DNA of 64,000 bases from Hydrogenivirga caldilitoris. Lineage in GTDB: Bacteria; Aquificota; Aquificia; Aquificales; Aquificaceae. Positions 47,803 through 56,915 of this stretch are shown piece by piece. Numbering within the stretch: position 1 is the first letter of the stretch; every line of letters starts with the position of its first letter. The position numbers were made by a program, and so were the translations under genes. The notes under the pieces are model-generated. The model did not search any database and was not told the origin of the DNA. It worked only from the letters and a program-made list of their open reading frames with translations. The stretch covers positions 1,426,001-1,490,000 of the forward strand of contig NZ_RCCJ01000001.1 of assembly GCF_003664005.1 (NCBI RefSeq), given 5' to 3'.

Positions 47803-49083
47803 ATGGAGACGATAAAGGAACTGTACACTCACCTGTTCCGCCGCCAGTGGCCAGCATGGATAGGTGGGATAAGTATGGGTTTCATCGTAGTCCTCATGTT
47901 CGTATGGGGTGCTCCCTGGGGTGTTACCAACGGGATCCTGGTTTGGGGAGACAACATACTCAAGCCTATACTTTACCCAGATTCAGACGTGCAGAGTCCG
48001 ATATGGCAGTTTACAGCTTTGATAAACTGGGCTTTCCTTCTGGGAGCTTTTATCTCTGCGCTCCTTGGAGGGGATTTCAGGATAAGCATCCCCTCTTTTA
48101 AAGAGTTCCTAATGGGCGCCTTTGGGGGGACGTTGATGGGTATAGGAGCCTTTCTCGCCTTTGGATGTACAATAGGAGCTTTTCTCGTGGGCTTTGGAGC
48201 TCTTTCAGCTTCCGGTATAACGATGATGATAGGTTTGGGTATAGGAACGTATACCGGGTTGAGGCTATATATGTGGCTCCTTACAAAGGGCTGGGGCACA
48301 CCAGGTAGGGCTATTGAAGTTCCGGTAAATTTTCAGGTGATACTCGGTGTTGTACTCATGGTAATAACCCTTGGACTTATAGTCTTACTTGATAAGAAGG
48401 TGTCCACTTACTCCCCAGCCCTTGGGCTGGGTTCCGTTCAGGTCACCGCTGGCTCTTTAATATTCTTCGGAGCTATCCTTGGAATAATCAACCAGAGGAC
48501 AAGGTTCTGCTTCGTAAGAGCCTTCAGAGAACCCTTCATGACCGGTGAGGGTAACATGACGAGGGCTGCAGCTCTCGCCCTCATAGTGGCCGCAGTTTTT
48601 GGTCTTATAGTCAAGTTCTCACCTCTTACTAACGTCCTTGAGATACCAGACGTTAAAGACATACTGGCAATAGAGATGACTGCTCCTCCTTCTATAAAGG
48701 CTATGATGATAGCTCCCTCCTTTCCCATAGGTTCATTGATAGGAGGTTTTATCTTCGGCATAGGTATGACCCTTGCAGGTGGCTGCTCTGTGGGTAGCTT
48801 CTGGCGGGCGGGAGAAGGCTCCCTGAAGAACATGACGGCTATACTCTTTTATGCCTTAGGAGGTTCTCTCTTCGCTTTCCTTTACAGGAAGATAGAGCCT
48901 GCCATACTGAGCACCTTCTCCGGTCTTTACGAAAAACTCGGAGCAACTAACGCAACGGGTATAAGGCTCTTCCTTCCGGATGCTCTTGGTCCTGGGTGGG
49001 CTCTCGTCATATTCCTCGCCTTCGCCCTGGCATGGCTCCTGTTTGCAACCTGGAACGAGAGAACGATGAAGTTTACCTTATAG
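47803..49083 (+). CDS. YeeE/YedE-family sulfur transporter (TsuA-like)
   Basis: This 426-residue integral membrane protein imports thiosulfate or a related sulfur species. The conserved cysteines sit in AFGCTIGAFLVG, RTRFCFVRAFREPF and AGGCSVGSFWRAGEG, as in TsuA. It lacks a fused or adjacent TusA-like partner; instead a DsrE/thioredoxin operon faces it. Its ribosome-binding site is AAGGAGGAG. A TGTTCTAACA decamer lies about 40 bp upstream. Confidence 0.88.
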   Translation: METIKELYTHLFRRQWPAWIGGISMGFIVVLMFVWGAPWGVTNGILVWGDNILKPILYPDSDVQSPIWQFTALINWAFLLGAFISALLGGDFRISIPSFKEFLMGAFGGTLMGIGAFLAFGCTIGAFLVGFGALSASGITMMIGLGIGTYTGLRLYMWLLTKGWGTPGRAIEVPVNFQVILGVVLMVITLGLIVLLDKKVSTYSPALGLGSVQVTAGSLIFFGAILGIINQRTRFCFVRAFREPFMTGEGNMTRAAALALIVAAVFGLIVKFSPLTNVLEIPDVKDILAIEMTAPPSIKAMMIAPSFPIGSLIGGFIFGIGMTLAGGCSVGSFWRAGEGSLKNMTAILFYALGGSLFAFLYRKIEPAILSTFSGLYEKLGATNATGIRLFLPDALGPGWALVIFLAFALAWLLFATWNERTMKFTL

Positions 49084-49456
49084 ATTCAATTATCGGACAT
49101 ACGGAGGCGGGGACGTCCCGCCTCTTCCTTAAGAGACCCTCCAGGAGTTTCTTCTGGGAATTCAGCTCCTCTATGAGATTTTCTATCTCACGGATTTTTC
49201 CCTTTATCTTCTCCTCAACACACCCGCAGGGTGTCCTTCCCGAAAACTTCAGGGAGATAATCTCCTTTATGTCCTCTAACTTAAAGCCGACCGCTTTCGC
49301 TTTGAGGATGAACTCGCAGAGCTTGAGGTGTTCTTCCGTGTAAACTCTGTAACCCGAACTGTTCCTTGACGGTGGTGGAAGGAGACCTATCTCCTCCCAG
49401 TATCTTAGGGTCTTGGGATTCAGTCCAAGCCTCTTGGCAAGCTCACCTATCCTCAT
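49073..49456 (-). CDS. MerR family regulator
   Basis: This 127-residue regulator has the N-terminal winged helix MRIGELAKRLGLNPKTLRYWEEIGLLPPPSRNSS split by motif, a coiled dimer helix, and a cysteine pair CGCVEEK near residue 82 that could bind metal or sense thiols. It is the last gene of the thiol-relay operon, overlapping dsrE by ATGA, and its end overlaps yeeE by 11 bp. It may control yeeE and the operon. Confidence 0.88.
   Translation of the reverse strand: MRIGELAKRLGLNPKTLRYWEEIGLLPPPSRNSSGYRVYTEEHLKLCEFILKAKAVGFKLEDIKEIISLKFSGRTPCGCVEEKIKGKIREIENLIEELNSQKKLLEGLLRKRRDVPASVCPIIESIR
49104..49124 (+). terminator. Possible yeeE terminator inside merR
   Basis: An 8-bp stem GAGGCGGG / CCCGCCTC with a 5-nt loop is followed by TTCCTT on the plus strand, 21 bp after the yeeE stop and within the merR coding end. 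Confidence 0.5.
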
Positions 49457-49875
49457 AGGTATATAGGTATGTACCCTTCTTTAACTTTCAAGACGTGGTA
49501 CTCAAAGCCAGACCTAACGACCTCAACACCGTCAAAGAGCGCCTCCTCGGAAACATTAAACATATTCATGGCGACCTTACAAGCCTTGAACTCAACACCG
49601 TGGAGCATGAGGTTCTCTATCCTCTCCTCAAACTCTCCGTTCTCAAACCTGTCAAGAAAAGTTATCCCCTCATCGTAAGCAACCACCTCTATGTCCGCAC
49701 GCGCTTCCCAGAGGTTTATAGCTCCCCTTATCCTTAGAAAGACCTTCTTCCACCTCTTCCTGTCCCTGAAGGTAACGGGGAATAAAAGTTTGATCTCCTC
49801 ATTAGAGGAAGCTCTCAGGGGAGTTAAAAGGGTAAGCACTCCGGCGGTTCCCAAGAGGAGGTCTCTCCTTCTCAC
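49453..49875 (-). CDS. Tat-exported DsrE/DsrF-like protein
   Basis: This 140-residue protein starts with a twin-arginine-like signal (RRRDLLLGTAGVLTLLTPLRA) and continues with a DsrE-type fold having a single conserved cysteine region (VEFKACKVAMNMF). It is likely a periplasmic sulfane-sulfur carrier. The GTG at 49875 is preferred: it overlaps the CcdA-like stop as GTGA and has GGAGGTG 5 nt upstream. The longer frame starts two codons earlier. Confidence 0.75.
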   Translation of the reverse strand: MRRRDLLLGTAGVLTLLTPLRASSNEEIKLLFPVTFRDRKRWKKVFLRIRGAINLWEARADIEVVAYDEGITFLDRFENGEFEERIENLMLHGVEFKACKVAMNMFNVSEEALFDGVEVVRSGFEYHVLKVKEGYIPIYL

Positions 49876-51146
49876 AACCACACCTCCAGAAAGTTTTTAA
49901 AGAAGTAACCTGAGAGTATCAGGAAGATTGTTCCAACGAGTCTGTTTATGTGAACGTAGTGGGCTTTAAGAAAATCAGCGAGGTAGCTTACAACCACACC
50001 TGAGAGGAAGACAGGTATAGCCCTGCCGACCGCATATACACCCATTAGAAAGACCGAAGCAGTCAGGTTACCCGTTGAGGTACTCAGAACTATTGCTCCG
50101 AGGAGTAGGGAGGTGCAGGAGGGACATAGGGAGAAGGTGTAAGCAACCCCGAGAAGGAAGCTGCCTGTGCCCGCTCCCCTGAAGGGATTGAGCTTAGCCA
50201 CTTGAAGGGAGAAGGGAAGTACGTTGAGGAGGTTGAGGGCAATCAAAAGGAGAATAGCGGCGAGGAAAAGGTTGAAGATATCAGTCCTGAATATCTCCGA
50301 GAGGACTATAGCGCCGGCGGAGGCGATACCCCCGACAAAGGCATGGGTGAGGAGAAGGGCAACAGAGAAGCCGATCACGCTCAGGGTTATATCCCTCTTG
50401 GAGCTGTGCTTAGTAACGAGTATTCCGAAAACCACCGGCAGGAAAGGTAGGGTGGAGGGTCCAAGGCTCGTTAAGAAACCGAGAATAAAGAGTATTAACG
50501 CTAAAAGTAGGAAGGGCTGTTGCTCCTGAAGAAGGGAAGAGACGAAGAGGCTGAGTCCCGTAAAGTTTATGAAAAGACCAATAGCGAGTATAAGGGAAAA
50601 GCCCGTTATTGCCGGGACCGCCGGTATCAGGAAGGTAAGAACTTTAAGAACCTTCTCCGGCAGTAGTATGAGTATAAGGGTGGGGAGGGTGACAAAGAGA
50701 GCGTAAAGATTAAATATCAGAAAAGGACTCTTGAAATAAAGGGAATAGAATGCAAGGAGGGCTATAAAGGGAAGGCTGCAGTAGGTGAGACTGAAACCCA
50801 GAGCCACACCAGGAGGGAACCTTCTGTGGTGGAAGAAGAACTGAGGTGAGAAATCAATGGGTGCTATCCCGAATCTCCTCATGAGGGGAAAGCCGAGGAT
50901 GAATATCCCAGCAACAATTCCTTGAACGACCAGAAGAGTCTCCAAGGAGGGAGTAAACCTCTTTGAGAGAATATAGAAGAGAAAGGCGATGAGATTGAAG
51001 AGAAGGAAGCGAGATAAGAAGAGAAGGGGTATCTCTAAAACGCTTCCCTTCTTCACGTAAGCCCTCAGCAGTAGATTTACATTCCACATGCAGGGGGTGA
51101 AAAAGGACAGGGCTCCGAGGAGGGGAACTATATAAACGGGGCTCAG
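49872..51146 (-). CDS. CcdA-like membrane thiol-transfer protein with two modules, CTG start
   Basis: This 424-residue polytopic protein appears built from two CcdA-like modules. Module 1 opens with ALSFFTPCMWN (Cys19), resembling the first helix of CcdA, and has TYCSLPF (Cys123). Module 2 has LTSLGPSTLPFLP, where Ser231 replaces the usual Cys, and FSLCPSCTSLLLGAI (Cys341, Cys344). It would move electrons from cytoplasmic thioredoxin to periplasmic thiols. An ATG at 51089 would cut off the TPC motif; no ATG, GTG or TTG precedes it in frame, but CTG at 51146 overlaps the thioredoxin stop (CTGA) behind GAGGAGGAG. Confidence 0.75.
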   Translation of the reverse strand: MSPVYIVPLLGALSFFTPCMWNVNLLLRAYVKKGSVLEIPLLFLSRFLLFNLIAFLFYILSKRFTPSLETLLVVQGIVAGIFILGFPLMRRFGIAPIDFSPQFFFHHRRFPPGVALGFSLTYCSLPFIALLAFYSLYFKSPFLIFNLYALFVTLPTLILILLPEKVLKVLTFLIPAVPAITGFSLILAIGLFINFTGLSLFVSSLLQEQQPFLLLALILFILGFLTSLGPSTLPFLPVVFGILVTKHSSKRDITLSVIGFSVALLLTHAFVGGIASAGAIVLSEIFRTDIFNLFLAAILLLIALNLLNVLPFSLQVAKLNPFRGAGTGSFLLGVAYTFSLCPSCTSLLLGAIVLSTSTGNLTASVFLMGVYAVGRAIPVFLSGVVVSYLADFLKAHYVHINRLVGTIFLILSGYFFKNFLEVWL

Positions 51147-51394
51147 GATATCTCCTCCTCTATAGCTTTCCTTATATTCTCCTCTGAAGGCACCACACCG
51201 GCGAACTTCACCTTTCCGTTTATCACCACCGCCGGGGAGGTCAGAATGCCGAGCTCCGTTATCCTGTCCACATCCTCTATGGGGTCGAGCATCTTTACCT
51301 CAGCGCCAAGCTCCCTCGCCACCTTAACAACCCTATCCTTAACCACCGCACACTTGGGGCAGAAGTTTGACTCCAAGAGCTCAACGGCCACCAT
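51143..51394 (-). CDS. Small thioredoxin-like redox disulfide protein
   Basis: This 83-residue glutaredoxin-sized protein (TM0996/MTH895 type) has the redox motif FCPKCAVV (Cys12, Cys15), the cis-Pro loop GILTSPAVVING and a C-terminal helix. It probably reduces the CcdA-like protein encoded next to it, whose CTG start overlaps its stop. It has no Shine-Dalgarno; a TATATT lies 7 nt upstream, right after a terminator-like hairpin, so it may be a leaderless operon start. Confidence 0.85.
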   Translation of the reverse strand: MVAVELLESNFCPKCAVVKDRVVKVARELGAEVKMLDPIEDVDRITELGILTSPAVVINGKVKFAGVVPSEENIRKAIEEEIS

Positions 51395-51401
51395 AGATGA
51401 G

Positions 51402-51407
51402 AATATA
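51402..51407 (-). promoter_or_regulatory. -10 box close to the small thioredoxin start
   Basis: TATATT on the minus strand lies 7 nt from the ATG at 51394, directly after the upstream hairpin, giving an expected leader of zero to one nucleotide. A weak TTGCCT lies 19-20 bp further up. Confidence 0.45.
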
Positions 51408-51409
51408 AA

Positions 51410-51429
51410 CCTTCCAGCTAACTGGAAGG
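51410..51429 (-). terminator. Hairpin terminator after the cytoplasmic DsrE gene
   Basis: A perfect 8-bp stem CCTTCCAG / CTGGAAGG with a 4-nt loop is followed by TTTATATT on the minus strand. It separates the DsrE gene from the thioredoxin operon. Confidence 0.6.
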
Positions 51430-51435
51430 CAAGGG

Positions 51436-51756
51436 CTAAAAGCTGACCACCTTGTCCGCCCAGCTCACGAGCTCATAGAGGTCATTCATTGAGCCGACAG
51501 GACAGGCAGCCCCCTCCTTAGAGTTCCTAACCTCTAAACATACCCCGCAGGCAACGACCTCCCCTCCGTTCTCTTTAAAAAGTTTCATCTGCTCCCGGAC
51601 GTTGAACTTCTCGTTTTCTATCCCGAGACTCTCAACACCCTTTCCGAGAAGGAAGACCTTAACCTCATCCCCCTGAGCCAAGGAGAAGACGCCGAACCTG
51701 AAGGCGTTCCACACGGTCTCAGGGTCGTTGCTATAAACTACTATCCCCACTCTCAT
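51436..51756 (-). CDS. Cytoplasmic DsrE-family sulfur carrier
   Basis: This 106-residue protein has the DsrE fold (MRVGIVVYSNDPETVWNAF ... GDEVKVFLLGKGVE) and cysteines at GGEVVACGVCLE and GAACPVGSM. The CGVC pair region is the usual persulfide site. It lacks a signal peptide and so complements the Tat-exported copy. ATG 51756 follows GGGAGG. It lies 33 bp from divergent queF. Confidence 0.85.
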   Translation of the reverse strand: MRVGIVVYSNDPETVWNAFRFGVFSLAQGDEVKVFLLGKGVESLGIENEKFNVREQMKLFKENGGEVVACGVCLEVRNSKEGAACPVGSMNDLYELVSWADKVVSF

Positions 51757-52182: not shown

Positions 52183-52858
52183 GGAAGAGAAGCTTTGGTA
52201 TCTCAAGAACCTTGACATACTTTCCGGACTATCCGAAGAAGAGCTGAAGTTTTTAGACGATAACTCAGTGGGTCTTAACGTTAAGAAAGGAACCACCATA
52301 TACTCTCCAGAGGAAAAGGAAGAGTTTCTTTACTTCGTAAAAAGGGGAAGTGTCAGACTCTATAAAGTTGACAGCAATGGTAAGGAGATAACCTTCGCGA
52401 TACTTGGGGCTGGTGACATATTCGGTGGTATATCTCCCTATGACAGAGACATGTACGGTGAGTTCGCCGTTGCCCTGGAAGACACATTCATATGTCTCGT
52501 AAACAAAAGGGTTTTCTTCAGCCGTATGAGTAGGAACCCCACGATTATGCTTAGGTTGAATAAGTTTCTTGGTTTAATGACCTACGAATTGGAACTCAGA
52601 ATTGAAGAACTCGTAGCCAAACCGGTTTTAACCAGGCTTGCCTCCCTGTTGTTGAGGCTCCAAGACAGGTTCGGCGACCCTGAAGGTGACATAAAACTGT
52701 CCCTATCCCACAGAGAGCTCGCAAGCCTTATAGGGGCAACCAGGGAAGCGACCACTATAGCCCTTAATGAGCTCAAGGATATGGGTGCGATTGAGATCGG
52801 CAGGAAGAAGATAAAGGTCATCAGTAGGAAACTCCTTGAAGAGCTCTCTACATTTTGA
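52175..52858 (+). CDS. Crp/Fnr family transcription regulator
   Basis: This 227-residue regulator has an N-terminal cyclic-nucleotide-binding-like domain ([30 protein letters not shown] ... GAGDIFGGI split by position) and a C-terminal winged helix ([28 protein letters not shown]). No Fnr-type N-terminal cysteine cluster is present. Its ATG at 52175 overlaps queF by 8 bp. It ends 11 bp into opposing bufC, and its target genes are unknown. Confidence 0.88.
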
Positions 52859-53546
52859 CCAGCACTCCGACAGATACAAGCCTGGACATGAAGTTCTCAA
52901 GGTAGGGTATAACCTCCTCAAGTTCAAATTCAAGTTCCCTTCTCTCAAGGGCGGTTTTTGGGCTCACTCCTCCTACCACCTCTTTCAGGTAGCCATAAAC
53001 AAACTCCGTCAGCTCCACACTCTTCACATTCTCATCTCTATCCCTGTACATAAGCAGGTAGTAATTACCCTTAGCGGCAATCATCTCCTCATAAGACATA
53101 GAGTTAAACCTGTGAACGGGAAAGGAAAAATGAAGAATCTTAGCCGATGATGAGAGCCTGTAGCTCCCCTTCCATGAGAAACCTTCAGATAATCTCTCAT
53201 CAGGTGCGTTAAAGAGTTCCACTTCCAGCCATTCGTATAGGGCAAGCTCCTCAAGAAAGGGCAGTTTAGCCTTCAGGGGGAGTTCTTTTCCTCTAAAAAA
53301 ATCAACGAACTCGTTTCCAAGGTCTAACAGAAGCGGGCTTGTATGCTTCAACCTCATAAACTCCCTGACAAGTGGTTCAAGCTCATCTCCGAGGTATTGA
53401 GAAAGTGACGGAAGCGAAGTCTCTATGAATTCCTCAAACCTGTTGTAGACAAGCAGAAAGTATAGCTCTAACCTCTCATTTTCGGGAGGCGTGATTCCCT
53501 TGGCTGTGGCAAAAAGTTTCCTCATCTCAGCAAGCTCTCTTTGCAC
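52848..53546 (-). CDS. bufC: BufC-like protein (DUF2063), partner of MNIO enzyme
   Basis: This 232-residue protein fits the DUF2063 partner of MNIO enzymes, which binds the precursor and presents it for modification. The N-terminal half is helical (about 1-100; LEVYFLLVYNRFEEFIETSLPSLSQYL-like) and the C-terminal half has a mixed fold. The start is GTG 53546 behind AGGAG, overlapping bufB by 20 bp; an ATG at 53525 is an alternative. The assignment leans on the adjacent MNIO gene and the precursor. Confidence 0.75.
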   Translation of the reverse strand: MQRELAEMRKLFATAKGITPPENERLELYFLLVYNRFEEFIETSLPSLSQYLGDELEPLVREFMRLKHTSPLLLDLGNEFVDFFRGKELPLKAKLPFLEELALYEWLEVELFNAPDERLSEGFSWKGSYRLSSSAKILHFSFPVHRFNSMSYEEMIAAKGNYYLLMYRDRDENVKSVELTEFVYGYLKEVVGGVSPKTALERRELEFELEEVIPYLENFMSRLVSVGVLVKM

Positions 53547-54351
53547 CTCTAAAACTCCTCACTTCTTCAAGCTCGCTCATCAGCTCTCCGTACGAAGGTA
53601 TGTTGTTGTCCCTCTCCAAGAGAACAGGGATATCAGGTTTCTTTGATAGAACATAGGCAAGAAGCTCCAGAACTTCCTCCTTAACCTTCTCTCCATGGGT
53701 ATCTATAAGAATCCTGTCATCCTTATCGTGTCCAGCTATATGTATGTAAGCTACCCTATCCAAAGGCATACATTCTATAAACTCGTAAGGGTTGTATCCA
53801 TGGTTAACCGAGTTCACGTAAACATTGTTAACATCAAGTAGCAGGTAAGCCCCACTCTCCTCCAAAACTCCCTTTATAAACTCCCATTCCTCCATATCCT
53901 TCAATGGAGTATAGTAATAAGAGATGTTCTCAATTATCAATGGTATTTCAAGGAATTCCTGAACCTTCCTTATCTTATCCGAAACAAACTTTATCGTATT
54001 ATCAGTAAAGGGCAAAGGGAACAGGTCATGCAGGTATTCACCACCCATAGAGGAAAAACTAAGGTGCTCCGAATAAACCTTAATATCAAAGTCCTTTAAA
54101 AAACTCTTTATCTGCTTGAGGAAGGCGTAATTGAGTTCATCTGGAGAACCTACAGAAAGGGAGAGTCCGTGACAAACTACAGGGAAACGCTCCCTAACCC
54201 TCTCAAGGACCCTTCTGAAGAAACCTCCCCTCCTCAGCCAGTTCTCAGGTGCGATTTCAAACCACTCAGGTGATGAGTCATAATTTACTACCTCTTCAGC
54301 GAATGAATATCTGAGACCGAGTCCAAAGCCTTTAGGTAAGTTTAAGTCCAT
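53527..54351 (-). CDS. bufB: MNIO-family (DUF692) peptide-modifying oxidase, BufB-like
   Basis: This 274-residue TIM-barrel enzyme belongs to the multinuclear non-heme iron oxidative enzymes that modify cysteines of RiPP precursors. Iron-ligand regions are seen: VCHGLSLSVGS, VYSEHLSFS, LLLDVNNVYVNSVNHGYNP, YIHIAGHDKDD, DTHGEKV and LLERDNNIP. It is expected to convert precursor cysteines, as bufferin MNIOs form thiooxazoles. The ATG at 54351 lies 5 nt after TATACT with no Shine-Dalgarno, so a leaderless start is possible. Confidence 0.88.
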   Translation of the reverse strand: MDLNLPKGFGLGLRYSFAEEVVNYDSSPEWFEIAPENWLRRGGFFRRVLERVRERFPVVCHGLSLSVGSPDELNYAFLKQIKSFLKDFDIKVYSEHLSFSSMGGEYLHDLFPLPFTDNTIKFVSDKIRKVQEFLEIPLIIENISYYYTPLKDMEEWEFIKGVLEESGAYLLLDVNNVYVNSVNHGYNPYEFIECMPLDRVAYIHIAGHDKDDRILIDTHGEKVKEEVLELLAYVLSKKPDIPVLLERDNNIPSYGELMSELEEVRSFRGAKRAC

Positions 54352-54356
54352 GTCCA

Positions 54357-54362
54357 AGTATA
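54357..54362 (-). promoter_or_regulatory. -10 box close to the bufB start
   Basis: TATACT on the minus strand lies 5 nt from the ATG at 54351. In the same gap, AACTTAAC (near 54363) and GTTAAGTT (near 54429) form distant inverted arms that flank the divergent promoters. Confidence 0.35.
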
Positions 54363-54455
54363 AACTTAACCCAAATCCTCGTATATTTGGTGAGATAGAT
54401 TACAGATAACTTCCGTGGAGAGTCTATAGTTAAGTTACAAGGAGGTGTAGAAGCC

Positions 54456-54743
54456 ATGAACGGAAAGCAAAAACTTATGGGCCTTTTAGGTTCAGCAGTC
54501 CTACTCGGACTGGGAGCAGAAGGAGTAACACCAGCCCATGCTGGTGAAGGTAAGTGTGCGGGTAAAACAGGCGGGACCAGTACGGAGAAAGCCAAAGAGG
54601 CTACCTGTGCTGGAATGAAGAAGGAAGGCAAGGAAGCTACCTGTGCCGGCACAAAAGAGAAAAAGAAAAAAACTAAGGAGATGACATGCGCAGGACCTGG
54701 GGGATGCGGTGGGAAGATGAAAAAGGACGGCTCAAAGTCCTAA
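54456..54743 (+). CDS. bufA: Bufferin-like RiPP precursor (BufA-like), five cysteines
   Basis: This 95-residue secreted peptide has a signal (MNGKQKLMGLLGSAVLLGLG, probable cleavage after AHA at 28) and a Lys/Gly-rich mature region. Cysteines at 34, 51, 63, 78 and 84 all lie in C-A/G-G contexts: EGKCAG, ATCAG, ATCAG, MTCAG and GGCGG. EGKC resembles the EGKCG motif of bufferins, where an MNIO makes copper-binding thiooxazoles. A strong AAGGAGGTG precedes the ATG. It is divergent from bufB-bufC and leads to the DoxX gene. Confidence 0.82.
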   Translation: MNGKQKLMGLLGSAVLLGLGAEGVTPAHAGEGKCAGKTGGTSTEKAKEATCAGMKKEGKEATCAGTKEKKKKTKEMTCAGPGGCGGKMKKDGSKS

Positions 54744-54778
54744 ACCGAAGACCCAATTAAAAAGCTGGAGGGAACGCT

Positions 54779-55255
54779 ATGACTTCAAACCTAAGCGGTG
54801 TGGTTCGCCTTTATGAAAAGGGGCTAAATCTCCTGCCTCCCCTCCAGTCTCTTTTCCTTCTTTTTGTGAGACTTTACTGGGGATGGCTCTTTGCCCAAGC
54901 AGGATACGGTAAGCTCACCCATATAGATAGAACAACAGAATTTTTCGGAAGCCTTGGGATGCCATTTCCCGAATTTAACGCTTACTTTATAGGTCTTACA
55001 GAGTTTCTTGGAGGTGTTCTTATAAGCCTGGGACTTGGGACAAGACTGGTGGGTGCCTTTCTGGCTGGAGAGATGTTCGTTGCATACCTGGTAGCTCACA
55101 GGAGTGAGCTCATGAGCGTATTTTCAGATCCAAGCGAGTTTTACACTGCACCACCCTTCACCTTTATGTTTGCCTCTCTGATACTATTTCTGTTCGGTGC
55201 AGGGAAGATATCCCTTGACAATCTGGTTACCAAGGTCACAAGAGGTTTAGAATAA
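54779..55255 (+). CDS. bufD: DoxX-family membrane protein (BufD-like)
   Basis: This 158-residue four-helix membrane protein of the DoxX family has the features RLYWGWLFAQAGYGKLTH, FFGSLGMPFPEFNAYFIGLTE (motif split) and GLGTRLVGAFLAGEMFVAYL. DoxX proteins accompany many bufferin operons. It lies 35 bp after bufA with its own GGAGGG site and 4 bp before the cysteine-cluster gene. Its exact function is unknown; quinone or thiol redox roles have been suggested for the family. Confidence 0.82.
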   Translation: MTSNLSGVVRLYEKGLNLLPPLQSLFLLFVRLYWGWLFAQAGYGKLTHIDRTTEFFGSLGMPFPEFNAYFIGLTEFLGGVLISLGLGTRLVGAFLAGEMFVAYLVAHRSELMSVFSDPSEFYTAPPFTFMFASLILFLFGAGKISLDNLVTKVTRGLE

Positions 55256-55259
55256 ACTT

Positions 55260-55928
55260 ATGCCCTCAGAAAGCGAATATGCTGAGGAAAGAAGCCGGCT
55301 CTTTGAAGAAACGCTTAAAAAAGCCACGGAAGACATCAAGGTTGACTGCCGAAGGGGCTGTACTTACTGCTGTTACGGGGTTACCCTCTGGATAAAGAGA
55401 GTTGAAGCTGTCCTAATGGTTGATTTTCTGAATAGGCTACCGTTAAAGGAAAGGAAGGAAATCTGGCACAGGATAAAGAATTACGCAAAGCTCTATGAGG
55501 AAGAGGCTAAAAGGGTAGGGTACGCACCTAGTTTCCCCATCAAAGAGGAGGACCTTGATATAGAAAAGCTGGGTGTGATCGGCGGTTTAGGTATGAACGA
55601 GGTACCTTGTCCCTTCCTTGAAGAACACACGGGAGTATGCCTCATATATGAGGCAAGGCCGGACATGTGCCGACTCATGCTCTATGAGAACAGTTCTGTA
55701 TGTAAAAGAGACTGGGAAAACCCCCTCGGCTTCCTGTGGAAGAGGGAGATAGCACCCTTTATGGACGATATTAAGGCGAGGTTTTTCCCAAGGTGGAAGC
55801 TCAAGAGAGGAGAGCTCTCAAAGAAGTTCCCAAGTTTGGAGCAAGAGAAGCTTGAGGGAGAAGTGGGCTTCGTAACCCACTTTATAAGGTTTGACCCTGT
55901 GAGAAAGGTTTTCAAGGTTACCGGTTAG
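55260..55928 (+). CDS. YkgJ-type cysteine-cluster protein linked to the bufferin locus
   Basis: This 222-residue soluble protein carries a YkgJ-like cysteine cluster: CRRGCTYCCYG near residue 28-36, then CPFLEEHTGVCLIYEARPDMCR and SSVCKRD. Such clusters chelate iron, zinc or an Fe-S centre. The C-terminal third is Lys-rich and unlike the family core. It starts 4 nt after the DoxX stop, so it belongs to the bufA operon. It could supply iron to the MNIO enzyme or handle copper; both are guesses. Confidence 0.78.
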   Translation: MPSESEYAEERSRLFEETLKKATEDIKVDCRRGCTYCCYGVTLWIKRVEAVLMVDFLNRLPLKERKEIWHRIKNYAKLYEEEAKRVGYAPSFPIKEEDLDIEKLGVIGGLGMNEVPCPFLEEHTGVCLIYEARPDMCRLMLYENSSVCKRDWENPLGFLWKREIAPFMDDIKARFFPRWKLKRGELSKKFPSLEQEKLEGEVGFVTHFIRFDPVRKVFKVTG

Positions 55929-56835
55929 GGAGTCTGCAGTCCCTGAAGGTTTCCCATACGTATCTATTCAGCGGGTAGTTTAAGTACTCCCATTCACGCT
56001 TTGATGCATCGTAAACTCTCATTCCTTGATAACCGGCAAAGTCCATAACCATATAGAGAAAAGCTGCACCAGTGCCTCCAAAGCAAAAGAGCAGGACTTC
56101 ATCTTCCCTCTTAATACCCTGATTCTTCAAAAACTCATCTACATAGGCAGGGATTTTTATCAGGAGCTTGTTGGTCCTCTTATCTCTCTGAATCCACCAC
56201 TCCCAAGGTAAAGAGATAGAACAGGGAACATGTCCGTACTTTTTAGCAGCTGGAAACTTGGATATACCAAAGTAATGCCCTACAGGTCTACCATCTAAGA
56301 TAGGTTTCTTACCTATGCTATTGAGCAGGTAATCCGCATCTATCTCCTTCCTGGGGTTATAGTTTGCCCTGAAGTTTCCTTCCTTTATCTGTGGCTCATC
56401 GTAACTTACAGGAAAACCCTTGTTACTCCAGCCAGACCAACCTCCATCCAGCAGGGCTACCTTCTCGTGACCAAGAAGATGGAAAATCCAGTATGCGTAG
56501 ACAGCACCGAGAATCTCATTGGTGTTGTTACCCTTATAATAAAGGACAACTTTTGAGCTGTTGTTTATGCCCCACTTCCTGAAGAGTTTCTCGTACTCCT
56601 TGAGAGGTTTCTTAACAAGGGCTCCTGTTTTCTCATCCATTACCCTCCACTCCTCTTTTTCCGTAAGTCTTGCACCCGGTATGTGCCCCTCAACGAGATA
56701 GCTCTGAGAGTCTGAGAATTCAAGGATAACGATCTCCGGGTCTCCCAGATGCTCTTTCAACCATTCTGGTGACACCAGCTTGGGCAATGAGAAGGACACC
56801 CCTATCATAAGGAGAAGCACAATCAAGAAGTTCAT
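55918..56835 (-). CDS. Exported two-domain thiosulfate sulfurtransferase (rhodanese)
   Basis: This 305-residue protein has a signal peptide (MNFLIVLLLMIGVSFS), an N-terminal rhodanese domain (VSPEWLKEHLGDPEIVILEF, about 20-150) and a catalytic C-terminal one (about 165-290) with ILDGRPVGHYFG and the active-site cysteine in LLFCFGGTGA. It moves sulfane sulfur in the periplasm. It overlaps opposing YkgJ-type gene by 11 bp. Confidence 0.9.
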   Translation of the reverse strand: MNFLIVLLLMIGVSFSLPKLVSPEWLKEHLGDPEIVILEFSDSQSYLVEGHIPGARLTEKEEWRVMDEKTGALVKKPLKEYEKLFRKWGINNSSKVVLYYKGNNTNEILGAVYAYWIFHLLGHEKVALLDGGWSGWSNKGFPVSYDEPQIKEGNFRANYNPRKEIDADYLLNSIGKKPILDGRPVGHYFGISKFPAAKKYGHVPCSISLPWEWWIQRDKRTNKLLIKIPAYVDEFLKNQGIKREDEVLLFCFGGTGAAFLYMVMDFAGYQGMRVYDASKREWEYLNYPLNRYVWETFRDCRLPNR

Positions 56836-56915
56836 GTGAATACCTCCTGAGCTCCTTTCAGAAAAATAAACCCATCTGTTAACCGGAAGTCAAGTATTAA
56901 GCTCACAAAAACAAA

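Follow-up and report, generated by a model that had tools for sequence, protein, structure and literature searches.

What is the purpose of a gene cluster in which a thioredoxin, a CcdA-type membrane protein, an exported DsrE protein and a MerR regulator lie beside a YeeE-type transporter and a second, cytoplasmic DsrE protein? The cluster is found in Hydrogenivirga caldilitoris, and the window analysed here covers 64,000 nucleotides (1,426,001-1,490,000) of the complete 1.75-Mb genome of this thermophilic member of the Aquificaceae. An initial annotation had assigned the locus to sulfur trafficking, and domain scores over the open reading frames of the window recovered every gene that it named:

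47803-49083, plus strand: yeeE/TsuA-like transporter, a neighbour outside the regulon (Sulf_transp, 154 bits)
49073-49456, minus strand: merR, metal-sensor-type MerR with Cys77, Cys79 and Cys119 and no Cys112 (MerR_1, 75.5 bits; MerR-DNA-bind, 44.5 bits)
49453-49875/49881, minus strand: dsrE(Tat), exported DsrE-fold protein with an RR motif (PF02635, 36.5 bits)
49872-51146, minus strand: ccdA2, 424-aa membrane protein with a CTG start, probable tandem of two CcdA/DsbD_TM units, with invariant C19, C123, C341 and C344
51143-51394, minus strand: trx, 83-aa cytoplasmic thioredoxin-like protein (CPKC), MTH895/ArsE-like (Thioredoxin_3, 57 bits, E 2.5e-15)
51402-51432, minus strand: MerR-type operator/promoter of the core operon, with -35 TTGCCT, a 19-bp spacer containing the dyad CCTTCCAG-N4-CTGGAAGG, and -10 TATATT
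51436-51756, minus strand: cytoplasmic dsrE, an upstream neighbour outside the operator-controlled unit (DsrE domain, 43 bits)

The predicted transcription unit trx-ccdA2-dsrE(Tat)-merR (51394 to 49073, minus strand) is well supported as a conserved one. According to a survey of the neighbourhoods in 112 Aquificales genomes, the four genes form one tight unit in the genera g1, g2 and g11, which keep the annotated operon in the same order, and trx-ccdA2 occurs also in g7 and in the sister family f2. The gene anatomy and the regulon described below are well supported, with gene order, the operator and its conservation, the second targets and the invariant cysteines being read directly from the sequence; the inducer and the chemistry of the system we infer.

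The membrane protein had earlier been called from ATG 51089. This start is ruled out by the frame, which is open upstream to CTG 51146 and overlaps the trx stop codon there (CTGA), and by TTG codons with a Shine-Dalgarno sequence at or near the equivalent position in nine relatives. The 19 residues regained in this way hold the catalytic Pro-Cys of TM1, which is invariant (13/13). CcdA2 matches DsbD_TM at 41 bits against a cut-off of 27.1, as do 13 of 13 relatives; Pfam recognises only the C-terminal half, and a Pfam search with the N-terminal half alone gave no meaningful match. The N-terminal half has the CcdA-type cysteine pair, C19 in TM1 and C123 in TM4; the C-terminal half has lost the TM1 cysteine, has CPSC in TM4 and keeps only C341 and C344. 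All four cysteines are invariant in 13 relatives. The two halves align collinearly with a score above that of 60 out of 60 controls, but hhalign found nothing significant between them (the alignment is too shallow), and a tandem double CcdA is therefore likely, not proven. Rather than a single six-helix unit, about twelve helices are seen in an AlphaFold model of low confidence (pTM 0.48). Because of this low confidence, the PDB fold matches of the model (MFS transporters, E > 0.7) were discarded as meaningless. Searching the PDB with a CcdA2 profile yielded no match, nor did a search of the family f2 double CcdA against plasmids. The ccdA2 of G012 (L071:6-1199) has diverged strongly, to an identity of about 42%, and lies in a cassette apart from yeeE.

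Could CcdA2 serve cytochrome c maturation, its neighbours being incidental? The DsbD_TM domain would fit such a role, but a canonical CcdA with SPC and TPC motifs is encoded separately, at 834 kb, and ccdA2 is patchy, found by profile in 20 of the 136 genomes of the phylum (with a permissive cut-off, in 21 of the 112 Aquificales genomes). We therefore consider this explanation highly improbable and, since an ordinary CcdA exists elsewhere, regard CcdA2 as a dedicated conduit.

The thioredoxin has no signal peptide and scores 58 bits against TIGR00412, below the cut-off of 62; its relatives include archaeal thioredoxins of solved structure. The exported DsrE has a genuine DsrE fold, matching 1l1s and 2pd2 with a probability of 1.00 (solved relatives MTH1491 and ST0148), and its single invariant cysteine is C99 of the 140-aa form (14/14 in the alignment). 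Three genomes with the cassette (G011, G013 and G016) lack it, which leaves merR-trx-ccdA2 as the obligate core and makes DsrE an accessory. One DsrE on each side of the membrane had been taken as a feature of the locus; both are indeed present, but their number is not special, with 12 DsrE matches over the Pfam cut-off in the genome. Five TusA proteins also exceed the cut-off, and a TusA-DsrE-DsrE trio is located near 1,375 kb.

The sequence between the cytoplasmic dsrE and trx, TTGCCTTCCAGTTAGCTGGAAGGTTTATATT, contains a perfect dyad in a 19-bp spacer, and a dyad within such an over-long spacer (19-20 bp) is the hallmark of MerR promoters. It is the sole site with 0 mismatches in the window and in the whole genome, and across the 127,948 positions of the window two sites have at most 4 mismatches, this one and a site with 3 mismatches upstream of an exported rhodanese. 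The operator is kept at 10 of the 12 visible Aquificaceae trx starts, in genera g1, g2, g7 and g11; the two exceptions are G014, where merR is also gone from the locus, and the IS-disrupted G063. With at most 1 mismatch the pattern occurs in 15/112 genomes and a reversed control pattern in 0/112, while a loose pattern (3 mismatches) shows no excess in the genome (107 matches vs 147 for the control). Its half-site is identical to the one in the copA promoter of E. coli (CCTTCC-N7-GGAAGG), as checked upstream of copA. The operator is most likely read by the MerR of the locus. In G063 (L140:7777-8683 and the end of L190) the cassette has apparently been wrecked by an IS200/IS605-type element: the operator lies on a contig end, trx is cut after about 19 codons and ccdA2 is gone, with dsrE and merR intact.

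The second site belongs to a gene that the initial annotation had tentatively tied to the cassette:

55918-56835, minus strand: exported two-domain rhodanese, mercaptopyruvate-sulfurtransferase-like, putative second MerR target (domain matches, upstream operator)
56863-56893, minus strand: second, weaker operator/promoter (TTGACT, 19-bp spacer, TATTTT), 3 mismatches, 58 bp upstream of the rhodanese

This tie gains support from the operator common to both. Relatives show the rhodanese-upstream operator with 0, 0 and 1 mismatches (G019, G011 and G022, respectively); it is absent in G023 and in the cassette-less G009, G058, G060 and G061. In genus g10, merTA and the rhodanese orthologue are convergent genes.

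Does yeeE belong to the same system? No TusA partner is encoded nearby, as had been remarked, the five TusA genes all lying elsewhere. The three Cys motifs of TsuA are conserved in YeeE, which falls below the TsuA equivalog cut-offs (90.5 vs 400 bits, and 67 vs 645). The operon had been described as facing yeeE; merR and yeeE are in fact convergent at the 3' end of merR, which therefore does not face the yeeE promoter. Nearly all genomes of genus g1 have yeeE, and in 11 of 17 it adjoins the cassette. It sits directly beside queF with no cassette in G009 and G017, has no merR beside it in G008, and occupies a place different from that of the cassette in G012 and G014; conversely, the cassettes of g2, g7 and g11 have no yeeE beside them. 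Because each occurs without the other, we regard their adjacency as a genus-level accident between two separable modules. In all genomes read, even the best sites upstream of yeeE have 6 or more mismatches, and this lack of an operator removes, at the sequence level, the proposed control of yeeE by MerR. The upstream regions of the cytoplasmic dsrE are likewise without an operator (7 genomes, at least 7 mismatches). This gene adjoins the cassette only in genus g1, and although it does precede the operon as annotated, it lies beyond the MerR-type promoter and therefore outside the regulated unit.

Conservation in relatives thus holds for the four-gene core and not for yeeE, and a grouping that includes yeeE and the cytoplasmic dsrE is wrong, these being separable loci with no shared operator; yeeE looks like an unrelated neighbour of the regulon. 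A sulfur-trafficking locus, in which YeeE imports sulfur, a DsrE on each side of the membrane carries it and the CcdA/thioredoxin pair reduces it, would account for the adjacency in the 11 genomes and for the TsuA motifs. The two-way separability, the lack of a common operator, the dispensable DsrE(Tat) and the absence of the cytoplasmic DsrE beside the cassettes of other genera make it quite improbable. The case of yeeE illustrates that gene adjacency can mislead, and that the operator tells which genes work together.

Which further genes does the operator control in relatives? In G018 it heads, on one contig, a cluster encoding a MerT-like protein, a putative outer-membrane protein, an HMA protein, CsoR, merT and merA, and the same operator-headed cluster spans two abutting contigs in G013. 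The operator also heads the MerT-like module in G011, G016, G019, G021 and G058, and in family f2 the order trx-ccdA2-merT-merP-merA is found in G068 and, truncated, in G067. The further genes under the same operator are thus genes of mercury transport and mercury reduction, and for this reason we do not favour sulfur trafficking as the purpose. Across genomes, merA co-occurs with the cassette (12/22 vs 11/90; Fisher p 6e-5, with no correction for kinship), though counted by genus the correlation loses significance (p 0.14). No merA is seen in nearly half of the genomes with the cassette, several of which are incomplete MAGs. A merA in the same transcription unit occurs in relatives only and not in the genome of the window, whose merTPA lies 0.55 Mb away (merA at 930.9 kb) under a CsoR-like gene and without this operator.

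Several observations on these loci were made in passing. The region upstream of the mer genes in G018 (L188:1385-3065) holds the operator-controlled MerT-like protein of 127 aa, a putative outer-membrane protein of 219 aa (SHEPIFGLGPGTIFKGG) and the HMA protein; neither of the first two has an NCBIfam match. G058 has a perfect operator before its MerT-like module (L189, C118:1984-2010), and in that genome neither a ccdA2 nor the matching MerR was located. An operator-like site in G023 (C144) was not counted, as it sits in a merA remnant. The order of a CsoR-like gene followed by merTPA (L139:6893-9481 in the own genome) recurs as CsoR-merT-merP-merA in most Aquificales merA loci read, which runs against a published account in which the mer operons of Aquificales are simple and have no regulators (PMC3466566). 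The literature searched yielded nothing on CcdA or DsrE within mer operons; a thiol gene has a precedent in a thermophile mer regulon, namely oah2 in Thermus (PMC6445937).

What might the regulator sense? It has the HTH, dimerisation helix and metal loop of the metal sensors and matches CueR structures over its full length. The cysteine pair 112/119-120 is not present, residue 112 being a non-Cys; Cys77 and Cys79 are, and Cys119 is invariant in relatives wherever the C-terminus is present. In the MerR family, Ser at position 77 is associated with monovalent ions, Cys with divalent ones (PMC11591864). Cys77, together with the mer-gene targets in relatives, leads us to favour a soft divalent metal, mercury first, as the probable inducer, with copper or persulfide as live alternatives; because the usual Cys112 ligand is absent, a different soft metal or even persulfide could act as inducer. 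The copper alternative can be considered along with a bufferin/oxazolin-type RiPP cluster of the copper-chelator kind in the window (52848-55255):

52848-53546: DUF2063-like partner
53527-54357: MNIO maturase
54456-54743: EGKC-repeat precursor
54779-55255: DoxX

Within genus g1, the bufferin MNIO gene is found only in cassette carriers (8/14 vs 0/3; p 0.21, not significant). If copper were the signal, the MerR would in effect function as CueR, and the relay would correspond in Aquificota to ScsABCD, a copper-linked thiol system. CueR is the best curated model for the regulator (99 bits against a cut-off of 147), the half-site is identical to that of copA, and the copper-binding type of cluster is next door. 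Nevertheless, Cys77 replaces the Ser of monovalent sensors, Cys112 is lacking, and the operator targets in relatives are mer operons with no copA seen among them; we hold this variant to be unlikely.

Alternatively, a relay like SoxV/SoxW might operate, in which the CcdA-type protein keeps SoxYZ, DsrE and rhodanese reduced during sulfur oxidation and MerR senses sulfane sulfur. The CcdA homologue SoxV, which reduces periplasmic SoxW for thiosulfate oxidation according to a reference cited in PMC10451225, provides a precedent, and both the exported DsrE and the rhodanese have sulfur-transfer folds. Metal-type regulators can also be recruited to sulfur sensing, as with the CsoR-family TTHA1953 (PMC10318464). 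Against this stand the thioredoxin without a signal peptide, the absence of sox genes beside any cassette locus read, and the MerT, HMA and mer genes under the operator in relatives, which leave it a doubtful account.

We therefore propose, with a probability of roughly 0.6, that a MerR regulator of the divalent-metal (mercury) type has its home operon here, and that its regulon supplies periplasmic thiol/persulfide proteins with exported reducing equivalents. This metal-regulon reading is favoured because the operator heads mer clusters in relatives and is absent where the locus has no merR (G014). Weighing against it are the own merTPA without the operator, the lack of significance by genus, the 3-mismatch rhodanese site in the window and its absence in G023, the missing Cys112 and the dispensability of dsrE(Tat).

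We infer the metal, the direction of electron flow and the substrates as follows. A soft divalent metal ion, most likely of the Hg(II) type, would be bound between two MerR protomers, by Cys77 and Cys79 of the first and Cys119 of the second. The metal-bound MerR would then correct the over-long 19-bp spacer and switch on trx-ccdA2-dsrE-merR and, through the second site, the exported rhodanese. From the small cytoplasmic thioredoxin, electrons would flow to CcdA2 (C19/C123, then C341xxC344) and thereby to the periplasm, where they may keep exported metal-binding and sulfur-carrying cysteines reduced. Candidate acceptors are Cys99 of DsrE, the rhodanese persulfide and, in relatives, the CxxC motifs of MerP/HMA proteins; the carriers might release their sulfane sulfur as sulfide. 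An extension of this scheme, which we put forward tentatively and think unlikely, is a metal-induced periplasmic sulfide generator, where the exported DsrE and rhodanese would gather sulfane sulfur as persulfide, electrons passing via the double CcdA would free it as sulfide, and mercury or other soft metals would be trapped in sulfide form outside the cytoplasm, alongside reduction by MerA inside.

The operator, the MerR and the mer-operon targets provide a testable regulator and regulon in an early-branching, vent-dwelling lineage. The metal response would thereby gain a reducing relay across the membrane as well as exported proteins of sulfur transfer, and sulfur chemistry would be tied to the detoxification of metals.

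How does the locus compare with known systems? With TsuA/YeeE transporters, the neighbouring yeeE shares Sulf_transp and the three conserved Cys motifs, but it has no TusA nearby and scores far below the equivalog cut-offs. SoxV/SoxW resembles the locus in its working principle only, a CcdA-type conduit beside a thioredoxin (in the window also a YeeE-family, SoxT-like gene); here, however, the thioredoxin is cytoplasmic, the neighbourhoods read contain no sox genes, and the regulator is MerR rather than SoxR. Likewise, ScsABCD shares as a working principle the metal-linked supply of reducing power to periplasmic thiol proteins, whereas the locus is without the ScsB N-terminal periplasmic domain, ScsC and ScsD and has DsrE, rhodanese and MerR control. 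The likeness to mer operons lies in the locus operator at the head of the mer cluster in G018/G013 and in trx-ccdA2 within the mer operon in G067/G068; on the other hand, the own merTPA is elsewhere under a CsoR-like gene, and trx, ccdA2, dsrE and the rhodanese gene have not been described as mer genes. Finally, the CueR/CadR sensors have in common with the locus MerR the fold, the promoter with 19-bp spacing, the CCTTCC/GGAAGG half-sites, Cys77 (CadR) and Cys119, but the latter has Cys79 instead of Cys112, and its target operon is predicted to export reducing power, not metal.
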